Source: Sphingomonas sp. (GTDB lineage: Bacteria > Pseudomonadota > Alphaproteobacteria > Sphingomonadales > Sphingomonadaceae). Taken from it: a stretch of DNA of 64,000 nt. The stretch is from assembly GCA_013001055.1 (NCBI GenBank), contig JABDNH010000011.1, positions 1-64,000 of the forward strand. The letters run 5' to 3'. The notes beneath the pieces are model-generated. The model was not told the origin of the DNA, ran no database searches, and saw only the letters and a program-made list of their open reading frames with translations. Below, in pieces: positions 1 to 56,387 of the stretch (positions are counted from its first letter, which is position 1; every line of letters starts with the position of its first letter). A program made the position numbers and the translations under genes.

Positions 1-80
1 ATCACGAACATCCCCGCCACCAAATAGAATATTCCGGTGACGAGATGCTCCGTCTGAGTGTTGGCGAACAGCATCGACAT
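1..80 (-). CDS. Small membrane protein, N-terminal fragment (cut by window edge)
   Basis: On the minus strand an ATG overlaps the nrdA stop codon (TGATG), and an open frame of 26 codons runs to the window edge. The peptide starts MSMLFANTQTEHLVTG and continues into a hydrophobic stretch that looks like a first membrane helix. The overlap suggests translational coupling to nrdA. From general knowledge, a short uncharacterised gene often sits between nrdA and nrdB in sphingomonads, so nrdB may follow outside the window. The product family cannot be named from so short a fragment. Confidence 0.5.
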   Translation of the reverse strand, partial: MSMLFANTQTEHLVTGIFYLVAGMFV

Positions 81-1945
81 CACTGACACGCCAGGCATTC
101 GTCGTAGTCGGTCACCTCGGCATGAATTTCCTTCATGTCGATCGTGTTGTCGGCTTCCACGCCCCCCGCGAAGCCGGCGCGCTGCACCGACTTGCTGCGG
201 AGATAGTAGAGCGACTTGATGCCGAGCTCCCAAGCGCGGAAGTGGAGCATCAGGAGATCCCATTTGTCGACGTCGGCGGGGATGAAGAGGTTGAGGCTCT
301 GCGCCTGGTCGATCATCGGGGCGCGGTCGCCCGCCAATTCGAGCAGCCAACGCTGGTCGATCTCGAAGCTGGTCTTGAAGGTCGCCTTTTCCTCGCCCGA
401 CAGGAAGTCGAGATGCTGGACCGAGCCGCCTTTCTCGAGGATCGAATTCCAGACCTGGTCGCTATTCTTCGATTTCTCCTCGAGCAGTGCTTCGAGATAG
501 GGGTTCTTGACGATGAAGCTGCCCGAGAGCGTCTTGTGGGTGTAGATGTTCGCCGGGATCGGCTCGATGCAGGCCGAGGCACCGCCGCAGATGATGCTGA
601 TCGACGCGGTCGGCGCAATCGCCATCTTGCAGCTGAAGCGCTCCATCGCGCCCATGTCGGCGGCATCGGGGCAGGGGCCGCGTTCCTTGGCAAGCATCAT
701 CGAGGCTTCGTCGACCTGCGCGCGGATATGCTTGAACATCTTGTTGTTCCACGATTTCGCCATCGCGCCTTCGAAGGGAAGGCCGCGATCCTGCAGGAAG
801 CTGTGGAAGCCCATGACGCCAAGGCCGACCGAGCGTTCGCGCTCGGCGCTATATTTGGCGCGCGCCATTTCGTCGGGAGCGCGCGCGATATAATCGCTGA
901 GCACGTTGTCGAGGAAGCGCATGACGTCCTCGATGAAGCGCTTGTCCTGGCTCCATTCGTCCCACTTGACGAGGTTCAATGACGATAGGCAGCAGACCGC
1001 GGTGCGATCGGCGCCCAAGTGGTCGCGGCCCGTGGGCAGGGTGATTTCCGAGCACAGGTTGGAGGTCGAGACCTTGAGGCCCAAATCGCGATGATGCTTG
1101 GGCATATTGTCGTTCACCGTGTCGGCAAAGACGATGTAGGGCTCGCCCGTCGCCAGGCGGGTTTCCACCAGCTTCTGGAACAGGTTGCGAGCCTTGACCG
1201 TGCCGCGCACTTCACCGGTCTTGGGCGACTTCAGGTCGAAATCGGCATCGTCGCGCACGGCCTCCATGAACGCGTCGGTGACGAGCACGCCGTGGTGCAG
1301 GTTCAGCGCCTTGCGGTTGAAGTCGCCCGAGGGTTTGCGGATTTCGAGGAACTCCTCGATCTCGGGATGGTCGATGTCGAGATAGCAGGCGGCCGAGCCG
1401 CGGCGCAGCGAGCCCTGGCTGATCGCGAGCGTGAGGCTGTCCATTACGCGCACGAAGGGGATGATGCCGCTGGTCTTGCCGTTGAGGCCAACGGGTTCGC
1501 CGATGCCGCGGACCGAGCCCCAATAGGTGCCGATGCCGCCGCCCTTGGAGGCGAGCCAGACATTTTCGTTCCACGTGTTGACGATGCCGTTGAGGCTGTC
1601 GTCGACCGAGTTGAGATAGCAGCTGATGGGCAGGCCGCGGCCCGTACCGCCGTTCGACAGAACGGGCGTGGCGGGCATGAACCAGAGCTTCGAGATATAA
1701 TCGTAGATGCGCTGGGCGTGTGCCTGGTCGTCGGCATATGCATCGGCGACGCGCGCGAAGAGATCCTGCGGGTTTTCGCCGGGGAGCAGGTAGCGGTCGC
1801 GCAGCGTTTCCTTGCCGAACTCGGTCAGCAGGTCATCGCGGCTTTCATCGGTCTTGATGTCGAAGCGGCGCGCATTGACCTTCTTGGATTCCGAAACCTC
1901 GGTGACGTCGTCTGCGGTGACTTCGTTTCCGGTCGAAAGATCCAT
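80..1945 (-). CDS. nrdA: Ribonucleoside-diphosphate reductase, alpha (large) subunit, class Ia type
   Basis: Catalytic subunit that reduces ribonucleotides to deoxyribonucleotides in the cytoplasm, working with the radical-bearing NrdB subunit. The 621 residues contain the expected cysteines: one in PISCYLN (about residue 110), one in NLCSEI, and one in AVCCLSSLNL, plus the redox pair at the extreme C-terminus (ECLACQ). The enzyme is shorter than the roughly 760-residue E. coli NrdA because the N-terminal ATP-cone is missing; the reductase domains begin almost at once. Two NrdR-box-like sites lie about 190-230 bases upstream. A short membrane-protein gene overlaps its stop codon. The start chosen is the only sensible ATG. 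Confidence 0.96.
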   Translation of the reverse strand: MDLSTGNEVTADDVTEVSESKKVNARRFDIKTDESRDDLLTEFGKETLRDRYLLPGENPQDLFARVADAYADDQAHAQRIYDYISKLWFMPATPVLSNGGTGRGLPISCYLNSVDDSLNGIVNTWNENVWLASKGGGIGTYWGSVRGIGEPVGLNGKTSGIIPFVRVMDSLTLAISQGSLRRGSAACYLDIDHPEIEEFLEIRKPSGDFNRKALNLHHGVLVTDAFMEAVRDDADFDLKSPKTGEVRGTVKARNLFQKLVETRLATGEPYIVFADTVNDNMPKHHRDLGLKVSTSNLCSEITLPTGRDHLGADRTAVCCLSSLNLVKWDEWSQDKRFIEDVMRFLDNVLSDYIARAPDEMARAKYSAERERSVGLGVMGFHSFLQDRGLPFEGAMAKSWNNKMFKHIRAQVDEASMMLAKERGPCPDAADMGAMERFSCKMAIAPTASISIICGGASACIEPIPANIYTHKTLSGSFIVKNPYLEALLEEKSKNSDQVWNSILEKGGSVQHLDFLSGEEKATFKTSFEIDQRWLLELAGDRAPMIDQAQSLNLFIPADVDKWDLLMLHFRAWELGIKSLYYLRSKSVQRAGFAGGVEADNTIDMKEIHAEVTDYDECLACQ

Positions 1946-50871: not shown

Positions 50872-53016
50872 ATGAGTCGTACCGCTGGCCTGCTGGCCGC
50901 CTCCGCCATTTTCGTCACTGCGCCTGCGCTTGCGAGCGATGCTGGCGATACTGGCTTCGTTGATGGAGAGCCGGGCGACCCGATTATCGTTACCGGCGTG
51001 CGCGACGGTTACGGAACCGATCGCACCAGCACGGCCACCAAGACCGACAGCGACCTCAACGACGTTCCCCAGGCCGTCAGCATCATCACAGCCGAGCAGA
51101 TCAACGACCAGGCGCTGCGGTCGATCAGCGATATCATCCGCTTTGTGCCAGGCGTAACGGCAAGCTCGGGAGAGGGGCACCGCGACCAGCTGGCCATCCG
51201 CGGCCAGTACACCACCGCAGACTTCTTCTCGGACGGGCTTCGCGACGACGTGCAGCATTATCGCGGTCTCTACAATGTCGAGCGGGTCGAAGTGCTCAAG
51301 GGCCCCAACGCGCTGATTTTCGGCCGCGGCGGCGGCGGCGGTATCGTCAATCGCGTTATCAAGCGTCCATTCGACACCGTTGCCGTTTCCGGCGCCGTGT
51401 CGATCGACAATGAAGGTGCAGGCTTCATCGAGATCGACGCCAACAGCCCGATCGGCCGGGACATGTCGGGCCGTCTTACGGGGACTTACGAACGGTTCGA
51501 CAATTTTCGCGACATCGAGGGCGAGCGTGTCGGCGTCAATCCGACGCTGGCGTTCCAGATCTCGCCTGATACCAGGCTCGATATCGGATATGAATTTGCC
51601 GAGGACCAGCGTGACGTGGATCGCGGCCTGCCCAGTGCATTCGATGGCACGATTGCCGACCCCGCCCGCGCGGTCGAGGGTTTCGACAAAACCTTCTTCG
51701 GCGTCCGCGGCGTCAACCACACCGAGCTGACCAAGCATGTTTTCGATGCCAAGCTGGGCCACGACTTCAGCGACACGTTCAGCTTCACGTCCAAACTGTT
51801 GTGGGGCGACTATGACAAGCTCTACCGCAACGCTCTTCCGACCAGCCCCGTCACCGACATTGACGGCACCCCCAGCGTCCAGATCGAAAGTTATGAGGAT
51901 GTCACGCTGCGCCGCAATTTCTTGTGGCAGAACGATCTCGTCGCGCAGTTCGCGCACGGCAGCGTTAGTCACAGGCTGCTCGTAGGCGTGGATTTTGCCG
52001 ACCAGGGGACCGATGCAGCGCGCCTTCGCGGCTTTTTCGACACGCTGCCGCCCGAGGATACGCAGACGAGCGGTCGCAAGACCTTCGTGTCGTTGGCCGA
52101 CCCGCTCACGATTGCGCCGATCACTTTTCGCGGCGGATCGGGTGAGCGCGCGGCGCGCAGCGACGTCGAGAATTTGGGCATTTACATCCAGGACCAGATC
52201 GCAGTTGGCGAACATGTCGAAATCATCGCCGGCCTGCGCCATGACTGGCTAGACATCCGAGTGCAGGACTTTATCGGCGATACCGATCTAAGCCGCTCGG
52301 ACGAATTGCTGAGCCCGCGAGTTGGCGTGGTCGTAAAGCCGACAAAGGACGTGAGCCTGTGGGCAAGCTGGGCGCGTAGCTACCTGCCGCAATCGGGCGA
52401 CCAGTTTAACAGCCTGTCACCGACCACCGCCGCGCTCGAGCCGGAAAAGTTCACCAATCAGGAGATCGGGATCAAGTATCGCGCGTTCGATACGCTCGAC
52501 ATCACGCTGGCGGCCTACCGGCTCGATCGCGAAAACACGCGCGCGCTCGACCCGCTTTCGGCGGACGTCGTACTGACAGGCGCGCAGCGTTCGGAAGGCA
52601 TCGAACTGGAAGTCCAAGGCAAGGTCGGCGCGTTGTCAATCACCGGTGGTCTGGCGTGGCAGAATGCCGAGATCACCGAGGACACAACCTCGGCTCCGGC
52701 AGGACGCGCGCTTCCCTTCGTGCCCGATTTCCAGGCGTCGCTGTGGGGGCGCTATGACATCAGCGACGAATTGGGGATCGGCCTCGGCGTCAGCCACCAG
52801 TCGGACATCTTCGCCAGCATCTCGAACGCAGTGGTGGTCGACGGGTTCACCCGCGTCGATGCGGCGGCATTTTACGATGTCAGCGACTTCGTCGCGCTGC
52901 AGATCAACGTCGACAACCTCTTCGATGAGAACGCAATCGCGCTCGCCTACAACGACAATAATCTCTATCCGATCGCGCCGCGTACGGTACGTGGAACGCT
53001 GCGCTTCGCCTTCTAG
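50872..53016 (+). CDS. TonB-dependent siderophore receptor
   Basis: A 714-residue outer membrane receptor. After the signal peptide comes a TonB box-like segment DPIIVTGVRDGYG, the plug domain (PQAVSIITAEQI, ERVEVLKGPNALIFGRGGGGGIVNR), and a 22-strand barrel ending in RGTLRFAF with the C-terminal phenylalanine. The plug motifs place it in the FhuE/FpvA/Fiu siderophore group; the ligand cannot be read from sequence. Control by Fur is supported by the box at 50819-50837. No siderophore synthesis genes are nearby, so it may take up foreign siderophores. Confidence 0.92.
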   Translation: MSRTAGLLAASAIFVTAPALASDAGDTGFVDGEPGDPIIVTGVRDGYGTDRTSTATKTDSDLNDVPQAVSIITAEQINDQALRSISDIIRFVPGVTASSGEGHRDQLAIRGQYTTADFFSDGLRDDVQHYRGLYNVERVEVLKGPNALIFGRGGGGGIVNRVIKRPFDTVAVSGAVSIDNEGAGFIEIDANSPIGRDMSGRLTGTYERFDNFRDIEGERVGVNPTLAFQISPDTRLDIGYEFAEDQRDVDRGLPSAFDGTIADPARAVEGFDKTFFGVRGVNHTELTKHVFDAKLGHDFSDTFSFTSKLLWGDYDKLYRNALPTSPVTDIDGTPSVQIESYEDVTLRRNFLWQNDLVAQFAHGSVSHRLLVGVDFADQGTDAARLRGFFDTLPPEDTQTSGRKTFVSLADPLTIAPITFRGGSGERAARSDVENLGIYIQDQIAVGEHVEIIAGLRHDWLDIRVQDFIGDTDLSRSDELLSPRVGVVVKPTKDVSLWASWARSYLPQSGDQFNSLSPTTAALEPEKFTNQEIGIKYRAFDTLDITLAAYRLDRENTRALDPLSADVVLTGAQRSEGIELEVQGKVGALSITGGLAWQNAEITEDTTSAPAGRALPFVPDFQASLWGRYDISDELGIGLGVSHQSDIFASISNAVVVDGFTRVDAAAFYDVSDFVALQINVDNLFDENAIALAYNDNNLYPIAPRTVRGTLRFAF

Positions 53017-54452
53017 GCGGCAAGCGCGGCGGCGCGATCGGCGGCGCGCTTGAGGTCGTCGATGAACCGTGCCCGCTGTTCGGTGCGGGCGGCTTTATCG
53101 GGGAGGCGCAAGAGATAACTCGGGTGGATGGTGACCATGCCGGTTCCGCCGCCCGGAAGTGCCAATTCCTCGCCGCGTACCTTGCTGATCGTTACCGTCT
53201 TTCCGGTGATCGAGCGGGCTGCGGTGGCGCCAAGTGCCAGCGTCAGCCCCGGCTGGACGAGTTCGCGCTCGGCCTCCACCCACCAACGATAATGTTCAAT
53301 GTCACCGGTGGTCGGCTTGGCATGAATGCGCTTCTTGCCGCGCTGGACAAATTTGAATCGCTTGACGGCGTTGGTGACGTACAAGTTACTGCGCTCGATA
53401 CCGGCGCGTTCGAGCATGTCGTCAAGCAGCTGGCCGGCGGGACCGACAAAAGGCCGCCCGGCCGTGTCCTCTTCATCGCCCGGCTGTTCGCCCACCAGCA
53501 TCAGCTTGGCATTGCGATTGCCCTCGCCGAAGACAAGCTGCGTACCGCTATTGGAAGGGTCGGCGCCGTGGCGTTCGCGCGCAAGCCTTGCCAGCTCTTC
53601 CCATGACGAAACGGGGGCAGTGGAAAAAAGCGGGCTTTCCTGTGCGCGGCTGGTTTCAATCATTGCGGCCTCGCGCGCCTGCGCGGTGGCGAGCAATTCC
53701 CCGATCGCTTCGGTTTCCGGCATGTTTTTCCAGTATTTCTTCGGCATCTCGGCGGTCATCGCCTTCACCTTCACGCGAGCCGGATTGAAAATAGACTTGT
53801 AATAGGTCTTCCACGTCTCCTCGACCGGATCACCGCCCGGCGCGTCCGCCTTCGTCGCGCCCGGACTTTCGCTGAGCGTCTCGCCATCCCAGTGGATGCA
53901 CAGTTGCGGCGTCAGGATCGACCAGCGCATATTGTTGAAGCGCCGCATGAAGAAGCCGGCTTCGCGGCGCACGATGTGGTTATCGGGTTCGAACCAGGCG
54001 ACCATGCGTTCGCCGTTACCATCGTCCATTTCACGGAAGCGCACAAAAGCGTGCATCTTGTGCGCGTCGCGGCGCACTTCCTTTTCCATCCTGCGGAGAC
54101 GATCGAGCAGCGGATCGGCGCGATCCTCCATCGCGCGGCGGTTGCGACGCAGCTTCCACAGCATTGCGTAGAGCAAGCCGAAGCGCTCGGGATCGCGGTG
54201 GCAGACCACCGTTTTGGCCAGCCCGATAAATGCATTGGGCACGGAAAATCCGCCCCCCGATGGCTCGGGAGGCGGCTGCGAACCAAATAGTTCGTCGGTT
54301 TGCCCCTCGACCGTCCAGATAACGGCTTCGGGCGGAACGCCTGCCTCGACGAGGCCGCGGGCAGCGTCGCGCCATCCGTCGAAATCATCCTGCCGTTCGA
54401 GCGCGACGCGATGGATATCGATCTGCGGCCCGTCGGGCAGGATACGCGTCAT
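53013..54452 (-). CDS. udgX: UdgX family uracil-DNA binding protein with N-terminal DUF4130 domain
   Basis: A 479-residue two-domain protein. The first 260 residues match the DUF4130/TIGR03915 partner domain (MHAFVRFRE, RREAGFFMRRFNNMRWSIL, VEETWKTYYKSIFNPAR). The second, from about 275, is a family 4-like uracil glycosylase of UdgX type (TIGR03914): GEQPGDEEDTAGRPFVGPAG at 321-340, the extra loop KKRIHAKP with H377, and TIHPSYLLR at 441-449. In Mycobacterium smegmatis UdgX the corresponding histidine forms a covalent bond with DNA after uracil removal. The ATG overlaps the hemerythrin stop (TAATG). Probably under LexA control through the site at 56253. Confidence 0.92.
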   Translation of the reverse strand: MTRILPDGPQIDIHRVALERQDDFDGWRDAARGLVEAGVPPEAVIWTVEGQTDELFGSQPPPEPSGGGFSVPNAFIGLAKTVVCHRDPERFGLLYAMLWKLRRNRRAMEDRADPLLDRLRRMEKEVRRDAHKMHAFVRFREMDDGNGERMVAWFEPDNHIVRREAGFFMRRFNNMRWSILTPQLCIHWDGETLSESPGATKADAPGGDPVEETWKTYYKSIFNPARVKVKAMTAEMPKKYWKNMPETEAIGELLATAQAREAAMIETSRAQESPLFSTAPVSSWEELARLARERHGADPSNSGTQLVFGEGNRNAKLMLVGEQPGDEEDTAGRPFVGPAGQLLDDMLERAGIERSNLYVTNAVKRFKFVQRGKKRIHAKPTTGDIEHYRWWVEAERELVQPGLTLALGATAARSITGKTVTISKVRGEELALPGGGTGMVTIHPSYLLRLPDKAARTEQRARFIDDLKRAADRAAALAA

Positions 54453-54937
54453 TACTCGCGGTTATCTTCCATATCGACGCCTTCGAGCGCACGCTGATAT
54501 TCTTTGGGCTTGCGCTCCTTGAACTTCTTGGCGAGTTCGGCTTCCTTTTCCTCGGTCAGCCCTTCTTCGGCGGCCGGGAACATGTCCTGCTCCTCTTCAT
54601 CGATATGATGCAAATAGTCGTGCTTGAGCTTCTTGAATTTTTGCATCCATTGCGGCGAGCTGGGGTCCATGTCGGCAATCTCGGCCATCAGCTCGTCAAG
54701 CTCATGGTGCTCGGCAACCGAATGCTGGCCATCGTGGCGCAGTTCCGGTTTCGCAAGCATCGTCGAATAGAGCGTTTCCTCTTCCGCTGCAGCATGAGCG
54801 GTGACCTCCGTGCGGAAATTCTCGAATAGCTGCTTGCGTTCTTCGCTGGCGCCGGTGGTGACTTCGATGCGATTTAAAAGCTCGCGGTGCTTGTCGTGAT
54901 CACGCTCGAGCTGGGTAAAAATGGTCGTCTTTGTCAT
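54452..54937 (-). CDS. Hemerythrin HHE-domain protein
   Basis: A 161-residue cytoplasmic four-helix protein. Iron-binding positions are visible: LERDHDKHREL, EVTAHAAAEEETLY, VAEHHELDELM and HDYLHHIDEEEQDMF. Such proteins bind a di-iron centre that senses or stores O2 or NO, or protects Fe-S proteins. The C-terminal 35 residues are very charged (EEKEAELAKKFKERKPKEY). It lies between the radical SAM and UdgX genes, with a one-base overlap to udgX, and is probably co-expressed with them. Confidence 0.88.
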   Translation of the reverse strand: MTKTTIFTQLERDHDKHRELLNRIEVTTGASEERKQLFENFRTEVTAHAAAEEETLYSTMLAKPELRHDGQHSVAEHHELDELMAEIADMDPSSPQWMQKFKKLKHDYLHHIDEEEQDMFPAAEEGLTEEKEAELAKKFKERKPKEYQRALEGVDMEDNRE

Positions 54938-54987
54938 CGATCTTCCTCGCTATAGTTTTGCAACCAACGGAAAACGGCCATGATTGT

Positions 54988-56250
54988 TCAGCTCGTTGCG
55001 ATGGAGCGCGGAGTGAACAGGTCAAGTTGCGAAGGCGCGGGGATGAGCATGGACTTTAGGTCAGCCCGGTCGGTGAGCAGGGTGGGACGCCAATCGGCGG
55101 CGGTGATGAAAGACCTGACTTTTTTCAAACTGACAGTAAGGCGCGCCACGTCATCGAGGCGCAGTGACCGATGTCGCCGTGACGAGAGGATACGGCCCAC
55201 CGCCTTTGTGCCGAGCCCCGGCACGCGGAGCAGTTGCTCGCGCGTCGCCCGATTGACATCGACCGGGAAATGCTCGCGAAACTTGAGCGCCCAGGCGAGT
55301 TTGGGATCGATATCGAGCGGCAACATACCCTTATCGTCAGTGGCCGAGACTACCTCGTCCGGCGTAAAGCCGTAAAAGCGCATCAGCCAATCCGACTGGT
55401 AGAGCCGGTGTTCGCGCATCAGCGGCGGGCGCTGCAGCGGCAAAACGGCACTCGGTTCGGGAATGGGTGAAAAGGCGCTGTAATAGACGCGGCGCAGGCC
55501 AAACCGATCATACAGCCCCTTGGCGCGCGACACGATCGTGCCATCGTTTGCATCGTCGGCGCCAACGATCATCTGTGTCGACTGCCCACCCGGCGCAAAA
55601 CGCGGCGCCGAGCGATATTTCTTGCGCGCGTCCTTGTTGTCGAGGATCGCGAGCTTGGTTTCGCCCATCGCGCCCTCGATCCGCTTGTCGTCCTTTTCGG
55701 GCGCGAGTCGCTGGAGTCCAGCGCGTGTCGGCAGTTCCACATTGATCGACACGCGATCGGCGTGAAGCCCCGCCTGATGAACCAGCTCGGCATCGGCGTC
55801 GGGAATCGTCTTGAGATGGATGTAGCCGCGAAAATCGTGATCCTCGCGCAAGCTGCGCGCGACTTCGACGAGTTGCTCCATCGTGTAGTTGCTCGAGCCG
55901 ATTATACCGGATGAAAGGAACAGTCCTTCGATATAGTTGCGCTTGTAGAAATCGAGCGTCAGCTGGACGACCTCTTCGGTCGTGAAGCGGGCGCGGCGCA
56001 CGTTGCTGCTCTTGCGGTTGATGCAATAATGACAATCGAAAATGCAGCTGTTGGTCAGCAGGATCTTCAGCAAACTGATGCATCGCCCATCGGGAGCATA
56101 GGCATGACAGATGCCCATGCCTTCGGTGGAGCCCATCCCCTTGCCGCCGCGGCTGTCGCGTTTGGACGAGCCCGATGACGCGCACGAGGCATCGTACTTC
56201 GCAGCGTCGGCGAGAATCGCGAGCTTCTGACGGGTATCCAAGCGAGCCAT
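54988..56250 (-). CDS. Putative DNA modification/repair radical SAM protein (TIGR03916 type)
   Basis: A 420-residue radical SAM protein of the group known to co-occur with UdgX. The cluster motif is CIFDCHYC (C69, C73, C76). Family landmarks are YDASCASSGS near residue 20, GICHAYAPDGRCISLLKI just before the cluster, and RVSINVELPT later. A C-terminal helix-hairpin-helix (VNRATREQLLRVPGLGTKAV) suggests DNA binding. The reaction is unknown; relation to spore photoproduct lyase has been suggested. The start MARLDTRQKL at 56250 fits the family and lies just after a LexA box. The hemerythrin gene follows after 50 bases. Confidence 0.9.
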   Translation of the reverse strand: MARLDTRQKLAILADAAKYDASCASSGSSKRDSRGGKGMGSTEGMGICHAYAPDGRCISLLKILLTNSCIFDCHYCINRKSSNVRRARFTTEEVVQLTLDFYKRNYIEGLFLSSGIIGSSNYTMEQLVEVARSLREDHDFRGYIHLKTIPDADAELVHQAGLHADRVSINVELPTRAGLQRLAPEKDDKRIEGAMGETKLAILDNKDARKKYRSAPRFAPGGQSTQMIVGADDANDGTIVSRAKGLYDRFGLRRVYYSAFSPIPEPSAVLPLQRPPLMREHRLYQSDWLMRFYGFTPDEVVSATDDKGMLPLDIDPKLAWALKFREHFPVDVNRATREQLLRVPGLGTKAVGRILSSRRHRSLRLDDVARLTVSLKKVRSFITAADWRPTLLTDRADLKSMLIPAPSQLDLFTPRSIATS

Positions 56251-56252
56251 TT

Positions 56253-56267
56253 GTTCACCATACGTTC
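56253..56267 (-). promoter_or_regulatory. LexA (SOS) box, GTTC-N7-GTTC
   Basis: The plus strand reads GTTCACCATACGTTC, an exact match to the alphaproteobacterial LexA operator GTTC-N7-GTTC. It ends two bases before the start codon of the radical SAM gene. A bound repressor there would block transcription of the rSAM-hemerythrin-udgX operon until DNA damage inactivates LexA. Confidence 0.78.
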
Positions 56268-56387
56268 TTTGCTGTGCAGATAAAAGTGCAATGCCCGACA
56301 CAACAGCAAAAAACTGCCGGTCGATTGGCGTCTTGCCTTTGCCTGCCCAGCCAGTAGCTTCGCCGCGACTTTGACAGGGAGATCCTC

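Follow-up and report, generated by a model that had tools for sequence, protein, structure and literature searches.

In a 64,000-nucleotide stretch of Sphingomonas sp. DNA (contig JABDNH010000011.1, positions 1 to 64,000; hereafter the window, with a mean GC of about 62%), we analysed an operon that encodes a radical SAM protein (rSAM), a hemerythrin (Hem) and a uracil-DNA glycosylase (UDG) of the UdgX type fused to a DUF4130 domain. The initial annotation had described three close-packed minus-strand genes, the last two sharing one base, and both claims are borne out by the coordinates and by family scores above the cut-offs (Table 1). The rSAM protein matches TIGR03916, which we take to be the same family as COG4277, with 571.2 bits (cut-off 343.5), and its C-terminal helix-hairpin-helix (HhH) motif stays below the Pfam thresholds (20.5 bits against 27 and 19.5 against 24). 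The genome has no Pfam Hemerythrin match other than the hem protein (66.5 bits, cut-off 25.3). The fusion protein scores 218.5 bits with TIGR03915 (cut-off 112.25) and 274.4 bits with TIGR03914 (cut-off 189.95). There are 50 bp between rSAM and hem, and the stop codon of hem runs into the start of udgX (TAATG).

Table 1. Features of the rSAM-hem-udgX operon, in coordinates of the window
Feature	Position	Strand	Description
rSAM gene	54988..56250	minus	420 aa from the ATG at 56250; TIGR03916; CX3CX2C at C69/C73/C76, extra invariant C23/C48/C57; C-terminal HhH-like region below Pfam cut-off
Hemerythrin gene (hem)	54452..54937	minus	HHE protein, 161 aa; likely ligands H14, H48, E52, H72/H77, H111, E115
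DUF4130-udgX fusion gene	53013..54452	minus	479 aa
DUF4130 domain	53715..54188	minus	Residues 89-246; Pfam PF13566, 134.5 bits (cut-off 27)
UDG domain, UdgX type	53049..53531	minus	Residues 308-468; GEQPG, KKRIH with H377, HPSYLLR; H365 replaced by R, C388 by Y
LexA box	56253..56267	minus	GAACGTATGGTGAAC on the gene strand, GTTCACCATACGTTC on the plus strand (GTTC-N7-GTTC); exact match in a conserved place
-10 element TATGGT in the LexA box	56257..56262	minus	Predicted transcription start at the A of ATG; from column counts of aligned upstream regions
Putative EcfG-type promoter TGAAC-N16-CGTT before hem	54966..54989	minus	GAAC at 54986-54989, CGTT at 54966-54969; -35 overlaps the rSAM stop codon

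As had been annotated, an exact GTTC-N7-GTTC site stands two bases ahead of the first ATG. A lone site of this kind proves nothing, because such sites are common in the genome: the window holds 4 of them against a shuffle mean of 1.78, a number reached by 10 of 100 shuffles. Genome-wide, the exact motif is not enriched (43 sites against 64 for the reversed pattern), which speaks against LexA control. What carries the case is the conservation of its place. Our survey of 91 rSAM loci, which drew on 30 listed loci and on 60 regions fetched in addition, comprises, once five genome repeats (L008, L022, L023, L026, L028) are removed, 86 genomes of the order. The fetched loci are best-scoring matches together with chosen genera, those for rSAM, Hem and the phylum level being drawn from the matches listed; the window's genus and one other are over-sampled, and the fractions given here are not family-wide estimates. 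The box is found between -120 and +30 of the inferred rSAM start in 85 of the 86 genomes; these 85 belong to the window's family, and the genome without a box (L002) is the only one from another family of the order. Within the 150 bp 5′ of the inferred start it is present in 84/86 genomes, compared to 1/86 for the reversed pattern and 0-3/86 for spacings from N4 to N10 other than N7. A chance occurrence is rejected by this conserved place. A start codon (ATG, GTG or TTG) follows exactly two bases past the site in 70 of 81 sites of the GAAC type, and four genomes from two genera (L068, L069, L071, L072) carry the opposite orientation, GTTC-N7-GTTC, at -33 or -34.

The box extends beyond the family. 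It is present in 21 of 24 alphaproteobacterial loci outside it (none in L131, L137 and L142) and in 19/19 further loci of the same class. Twenty loci of the same phylum outside the class were used to look for the E. coli-type box, CTGT-N8-ACAG, which lies before or runs into the rSAM start in 16 of them exactly and in 17 with one mismatch (0 and 2 for the reversed pattern); it was not found in L320, L332 and L336. This result suggests that an SOS operator has been retained at the rSAM-UDG pair although the LexA motif itself differs between groups. In the window's own genome, the motif lies 18 bp ahead of the start of lexA (C8:45780-46433), and it is found at or just before the starts of recA, radA, pdeM and a PA0069-type rSAM gene (NCBIfam names, over cut-offs) as well as of uvrA (a cut-off piece) and an rmuC-like gene (sub-threshold and cut). 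Thirty of the 39 motif sites outside the window overlap an open reading frame and 9 do not, according to a crude filter for the longest frames. A conserved GTTC-N7-GTTC at the promoter and the same box at the genome's own lexA are what the sequence of an alphaproteobacterial LexA regulon member should present, and LexA control of the operon is strongly supported by conservation. The initial proposal of SOS control is thereby supported; its remark that such control was less expected is not, as SOS control of a gene pair for a UDG and COG4277 has been reported for Alphaproteobacteria and Verrucomicrobia and was found in Bacteroidetes too (PMC8565304).

Other LexA-type sites were seen in the course of this analysis. 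At 1991-2005 of the window, an exact, AT-rich GTTC-N7-GTTC (GTTCATGTTATGTTC) precedes by about 45 bp the start of a gene for the alpha subunit of ribonucleotide reductase (80..1945, minus strand; NCBIfam, 1040 bits), making SOS control of nrdA through this site possible. Elsewhere, two exact boxes, GTTCTGTCTTTGTTC and GTTCCACTTTTGTTC, stand 25 bp apart (L099 1206-1245; C8:81805-81844 in the window's own genome), and an rpsB-like gene, named by eye, begins about 200 bp 3′ of them.

The aligned upstream regions also point to the promoter on which LexA would act. In 81 box-aligned upstreams, T at -18 (72/81), G at -16 (62/81) and C at -14 (60/81) form a -35-like T.G.C, and T, A and T occupy box positions +5 to +7 in 80, 80 and 64 of the 81, at the head of a TATA-like hexamer from +5 to +10. 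The two elements are spaced 17 bp apart, and the A of ATG, at box +17, follows the -10 after six intervening bases. Since the predicted start coincides with the A of the start codon, the rSAM mRNA is probably leaderless, and LexA would sit on the promoter -10. The window's own -35 (TTTTAT, 56280-56285) is poor, a point against this promoter. In four proteobacterial loci outside the class (L323, L324, L333, L334), the LexA palindrome runs into the chosen rSAM GTG start, which again suggests a leaderless start.

The same columns could be taken to mean that the box is the footprint of a promoter -10, or of another direct-repeat regulator, and has nothing to do with LexA, its core being TATA-rich and placed exactly where a -10 belongs. 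Against this, the GAAC ends, which are invariant because the sites were picked by them, nonetheless share a single position across almost all genomes; genera with the other layout keep GTTC-N7-GTTC at -33/-34, and other Proteobacteria have a palindromic LexA box instead. We consider a box unrelated to LexA very unlikely.

Next, we turned to the proteins. In an alignment of 153 rSAM rows (L293 and L336 being one place), six cysteines are invariant in 153/153. C69, C73 and C76 would bind the usual cluster, and C23, C48 and C57 could bind a second cluster with an open iron; similar three-cysteine sites occur in other rSAM enzymes. Of 297 genomes of the order, 179 have the rSAM gene, 174 of them over the cut-off. 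The DUF4130 gene next to it stops short of a UDG domain in 9 of the 24 class loci outside the family (the flanks there span 1.5 kb, and UDG could be encoded separately beyond them) and likewise in 13 of the 42 loci from L294 to L335. This distribution points to rSAM and DUF4130 as the core of the system; the two may use radical chemistry to act on a DNA base that is damaged or deaminated. A profile search of the PDB gave no solved relative for DUF4130 (best E value 0.077, to a ribosomal protein), which weighs against so specific an assignment; for rSAM it gave no useful full-length relative (best E value 0.018 over 33 positions, followed by ComEA-like HhH proteins). The presence of DUF4130 beside rSAM even without UdgX shifts attention to this pair as a candidate repair unit.

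The glycosylase half has the features of UdgX, namely a TIGR03914 score over the cut-off, GEQPG with Q323 and the loop histidine H377. We presume the cluster-binding residues of UdgX from those of family 4 glycosylases and from our reading of the alignment. Compared to mycobacterial UdgX, the window protein is without CxxC, a stretch that would lie just ahead of the UDG domain match, has Arg in place of the His of NAVKH (H365R) and Tyr in place of the later Cys (C388Y). Among 89 UdgX rows including the window's (the frameshifted L136 is kept as the odd row; the frameshifted L039 and shorter or cut rows are excluded), 81 keep CxxC, His and Cys and 7 have none of the cysteines, 4 of these 7 being without the His as well. 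A second set of 72 UdgX proteins, which shares some genomes with the first and was obtained from 75 by removing by eye three other UDGs (L262, L266, L269), adds one protein that has lost every ligand (L311). Apart from L243, which is truncated at its start, neither set contains a row with partial Cys loss. Q323 and H377 are present throughout the 89 except in the frameshifted row, and L310 in the second set has Ala for the Gln. On a UDG-domain tree of 101 rows, made with a quick method, the label without Fe-S ligands needs 4 changes, of which 2 are forced. The window UdgX thus appears to have lost the 4Fe-4S cluster that UdgX is described to carry (PMC10359453, available text) and to keep the cross-linking His.

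The initial annotation had suggested that the hemerythrin guards Fe-S clusters. With no cluster ligands in the window UdgX, Hem cannot be guarding a cluster there, and this part of the suggestion is rejected; the rSAM clusters stay possible clients, and the idea is weakened overall. A tie between Hem and Fe-S loss was likewise considered and dropped, as the ligands persist in L033, L034 and other loci that have Hem. At its 3′ end, udgX overlaps by four bases (53013-53016) a convergent gene resembling TonB receptors (50872-53016, plus strand; named by eye).

UdgX is highly specific for uracil in DNA and its cellular role is largely unknown, according to the available text of PMC10359453. Such specificity would suit an anti-phage system directed against uracil-containing or deaminated phage DNA. 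We set this alternative aside and regard it as highly improbable: none of the three proteins has a PADLOC match (0 families), PHROGs gives weak partial matches only, the frequency of rSAM in the order is more housekeeping-like than defence-island-like, and the LexA operator is conserved.

HHE hemerythrins bind a di-iron centre through a known ligand pattern, and the likely ligands in Hem, H14, H48, E52, H72, H77, H111 and E115, are invariant in 23 rows. Membership in the PA2171 family was rejected (61.1 bits against an NCBIfam cut-off of 190). The initial annotation had allowed that the Hem neighbour might be unique to this genome, an idea that does not survive the survey: among the best 80 named hemerythrin loci, 32 have hem flanked by rSAM and UdgX. 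In 6 more it directly precedes UdgX and the flank holds no rSAM, in 1 it adjoins rSAM where the contig ends, and in 3 a UDG of a different kind is near; the other 38 have neither rSAM nor UdgX within the fetched flank. Operon-linked Hem includes that of Sphingomonas, Sphingobium, Novosphingobium, Stakelama and Sphingomicrobium. In three loci (L262, L266 and L269; Henriciella, Hyphomonas), a related hemerythrin is found near a UDG other than UdgX on the opposite strand.

These counts leave room for a plain SOS operon with a passenger, in which Hem is a drifted-in stress gene, read through with no functional tie to rSAM or UdgX. Hem is beside or near rSAM in only 24 of the 86 loci; the 62 without it show that the operon does not need Hem, which counts against the reading favoured below. 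The Hem tree requires 9 changes of context, at least 7 of them forced (one entry with losses and many entries are indistinguishable), and the 38 named homologues with neither partner point the same way. Other genes too are found between rSAM and udgX: in some loci (L053, L061, L066, and L054 by spacing) a gene for a Beta_helix protein (Pfam, L061) lies there, before or after hem, and L053 has an additional gene without a Pfam match. Against a mere passenger, Hem keeps to UdgX even where rSAM is not adjacent. Five family genomes have no UdgX at the rSAM locus (L064, cut by a contig end, is left out). All five have UdgX: in four it is far away or on a different contig, and in G217 it shares the contig with rSAM, 5.6 kb downstream. 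In 3 of the five Hem directly precedes it, as it does in the 6 named loci above. Within the window's genus, a strong Hem match (E < 1e-60) is present in 14 of 20 rSAM-bearing genomes and in 0 of 6 without rSAM (hypergeometric p value = 0.004, by hand and uncorrected for kinship), with Hem in the operon in 13 of the 19 loci inspected. We regard a mere passenger as less likely than not. Separately, Hem matches with one internal stop were seen in G039, G100, G201, G202 and G226, pointing to possible decay of the gene in some members of the family.

A closer tie has also been considered, whereby Hem protects the oxygen-labile clusters of rSAM or supplies iron to them. The six invariant cysteines leave room for two clusters, and hem is 50 bp downstream. 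Against it, 62 of the 86 loci have no Hem beside rSAM, none is found there in the class and phylum loci outside the family, and when the genes are separated UdgX, not rSAM, is the neighbour of Hem in 3 of 5. We think protection of rSAM alone unlikely.

A second promoter may lie inside the operon, ahead of hem. The EcfG motif is given as GGAAC-N16-CGTT, with AAC nearly invariant and a flexible -10, in the available part of PMC7083833, and as GGAAC-N17-20-GTT in that of PMC6599016. Ahead of hem, the window carries TGAAC-N16-CGTT, one base off the first of these, and in its sister L032 the two ends are unchanged around a different spacer. We compared 59 distinct linked hem upstreams (including Hem beside UdgX without rSAM) with 41 unlinked ones (including L262, L266 and L269), repeated upstreams being dropped from the motif counts (L199, L208, L249, L264, L161, L162). 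In the unlinked set, GGAAC-N16/17-CGTT is found in 15/41 (0.07 in dinucleotide shuffles), in most cases some 56 bp upstream of the ATG. GAAC-N16/17-CGTT occurs in 14/59 linked (shuffle mean 0.21) and 16/41 unlinked upstreams (0.2), and a looser [GA]AAC-N15-18-[CG]GTT in 40/59 linked ones (shuffle mean 1.4, highest 6). A position weight matrix (PWM) built from the unlinked set recovers, at the 95% control level, 21/59 linked upstreams compared to 9/91 upstreams of rSAM and 5/77 of UdgX without Hem. A PhyR-like gene lies within about 3.5 kb of Hem (about 2 kb) in 19 of the 41 unlinked loci (for example L221 8031-8825, Pfam-checked); PhyR of the window's genome is 61% identical over 264 residues to a PhyR-like protein, and both have Pfam PhyR domains over the cut-off. 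The exact motif occurs at 13 sites genome-wide against 43 for the reversed pattern, counts that are uninformative.

Several observations tell against this promoter. The strict GGAAC-N16/17-CGTT is found in 0 of the 59 linked upstreams, and the loose pattern was picked after the sequences had been seen. At the 99% level the PWM finds 2/59 linked upstreams, no better than the controls (2/91 for rSAM, 1/77 for UdgX without Hem), and in the window the PWM scores highest at an alternative site that overlaps this one and has a spacer of 18 bases, with a score reached by 1.3% of controls. Moreover, the TGA of the -35 is the rSAM stop codon, and part of the conservation is coding. The linked promoters, if real, would be off consensus. 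Overall, a putative EcfG-type promoter preceding hem inside the operon has fair support, and hem-udgX might be controlled by SOS and general stress alike.

Taken together, we favour, with moderate confidence, a DNA-damage operon of known type under LexA repression, in a hemerythrin-bearing form with two inputs. LexA would cover the -10 of a sigma-70 promoter, with transcription probably beginning at the first base of the rSAM ATG, and RecA-driven loss of LexA would free the promoter; the sites come from comparison between genomes. Together, rSAM and DUF4130, the core, would apply radical chemistry to a base that is damaged or deaminated. The UdgX half would remove uracil and stay covalently on the site, a bond found by others for mycobacterial UdgX, thereby shielding the site or routing it to recombination. 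Hem would be a general-stress di-iron protein that arrived with its own EcfG-type promoter, from which hem and udgX could be made in general stress without LexA cleavage, and its most likely task would be to handle peroxide, O2/NO or iron during rSAM work. A more specific version is a two-input uracil trap: LexA would drive all three genes from the leaderless promoter and EcfG would drive hem-udgX, so that a cluster-free UdgX would act in oxidative or starvation stress without RecA activation while Hem clears peroxide or holds iron for the rSAM step. We put this version forward tentatively and think it rather doubtful as a whole.

Several aspects give the operon a wider interest. An operator on the -10 with a probable leaderless start, found in related form under unlike LexA motifs, would be a clear example of repression that is conserved while its DNA motif changes. 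A natural UdgX devoid of cluster ligands, from a genus that has UdgX of either kind, makes the purpose of the cluster directly testable. Joint wiring to SOS and general stress, if confirmed, would tell when UdgX is needed.

Parts of this system are already known, namely SOS control of the rSAM-UDG pair and the tie of DUF4130 to rSAM and UDG. The COG1573-COG4277 SOS operon is alike in its pair of a UDG and an HhH radical SAM protein under LexA; the part of that paper available mentions no hemerythrin, EcfG promoter, leaderless layout or Fe-S-free UdgX (PMC8565304). Within a limited literature search, we found no paper joining UdgX with LexA and SOS, UdgX with radical SAM, or hemerythrin with EcfG and the general stress response; the hemerythrin form, the EcfG-type promoter and the Fe-S-free UdgX were not seen in print within it, no search having been aimed at the last. 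DUF4130 is described in the available text of PMC3765255 as tied to radical SAM proteins and UDGs and thought to be mutagenesis-related, whereas the window copy is fused to UdgX and lies behind a LexA box. UdgX of Mycobacterium smegmatis (PDB 6ajo and relatives; PMC10359453 and PMC10776899, as far as available) shares GEQPG, the R-loop with its His and HPS..LR. The window protein differs from it in its fusion to DUF4130 and in the loss of CxxC and of the third and fourth ligand positions. For Hem, the nearest solved proteins are hemerythrin-like PDB entries 6q09, 6tyj and 6u3l, which we take to be a mycobacterial protein with catalase activity; they are of the HHE family (profile E value 1.4e-11) and only distantly related to the window protein. 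The words hemerythrin, haemerythrin, HHE and glycosylase are absent from the main texts, supplements not searched, of the two studies of the general stress regulon in Sphingopyxis granuli TFA and Sphingomonas melonis Fr1 (PMC7083833, PMC6599016). The regulons described there have promoters of the same form as the putative one before hem, and they count DNA-repair genes, ku-ligD and ku, among their targets.

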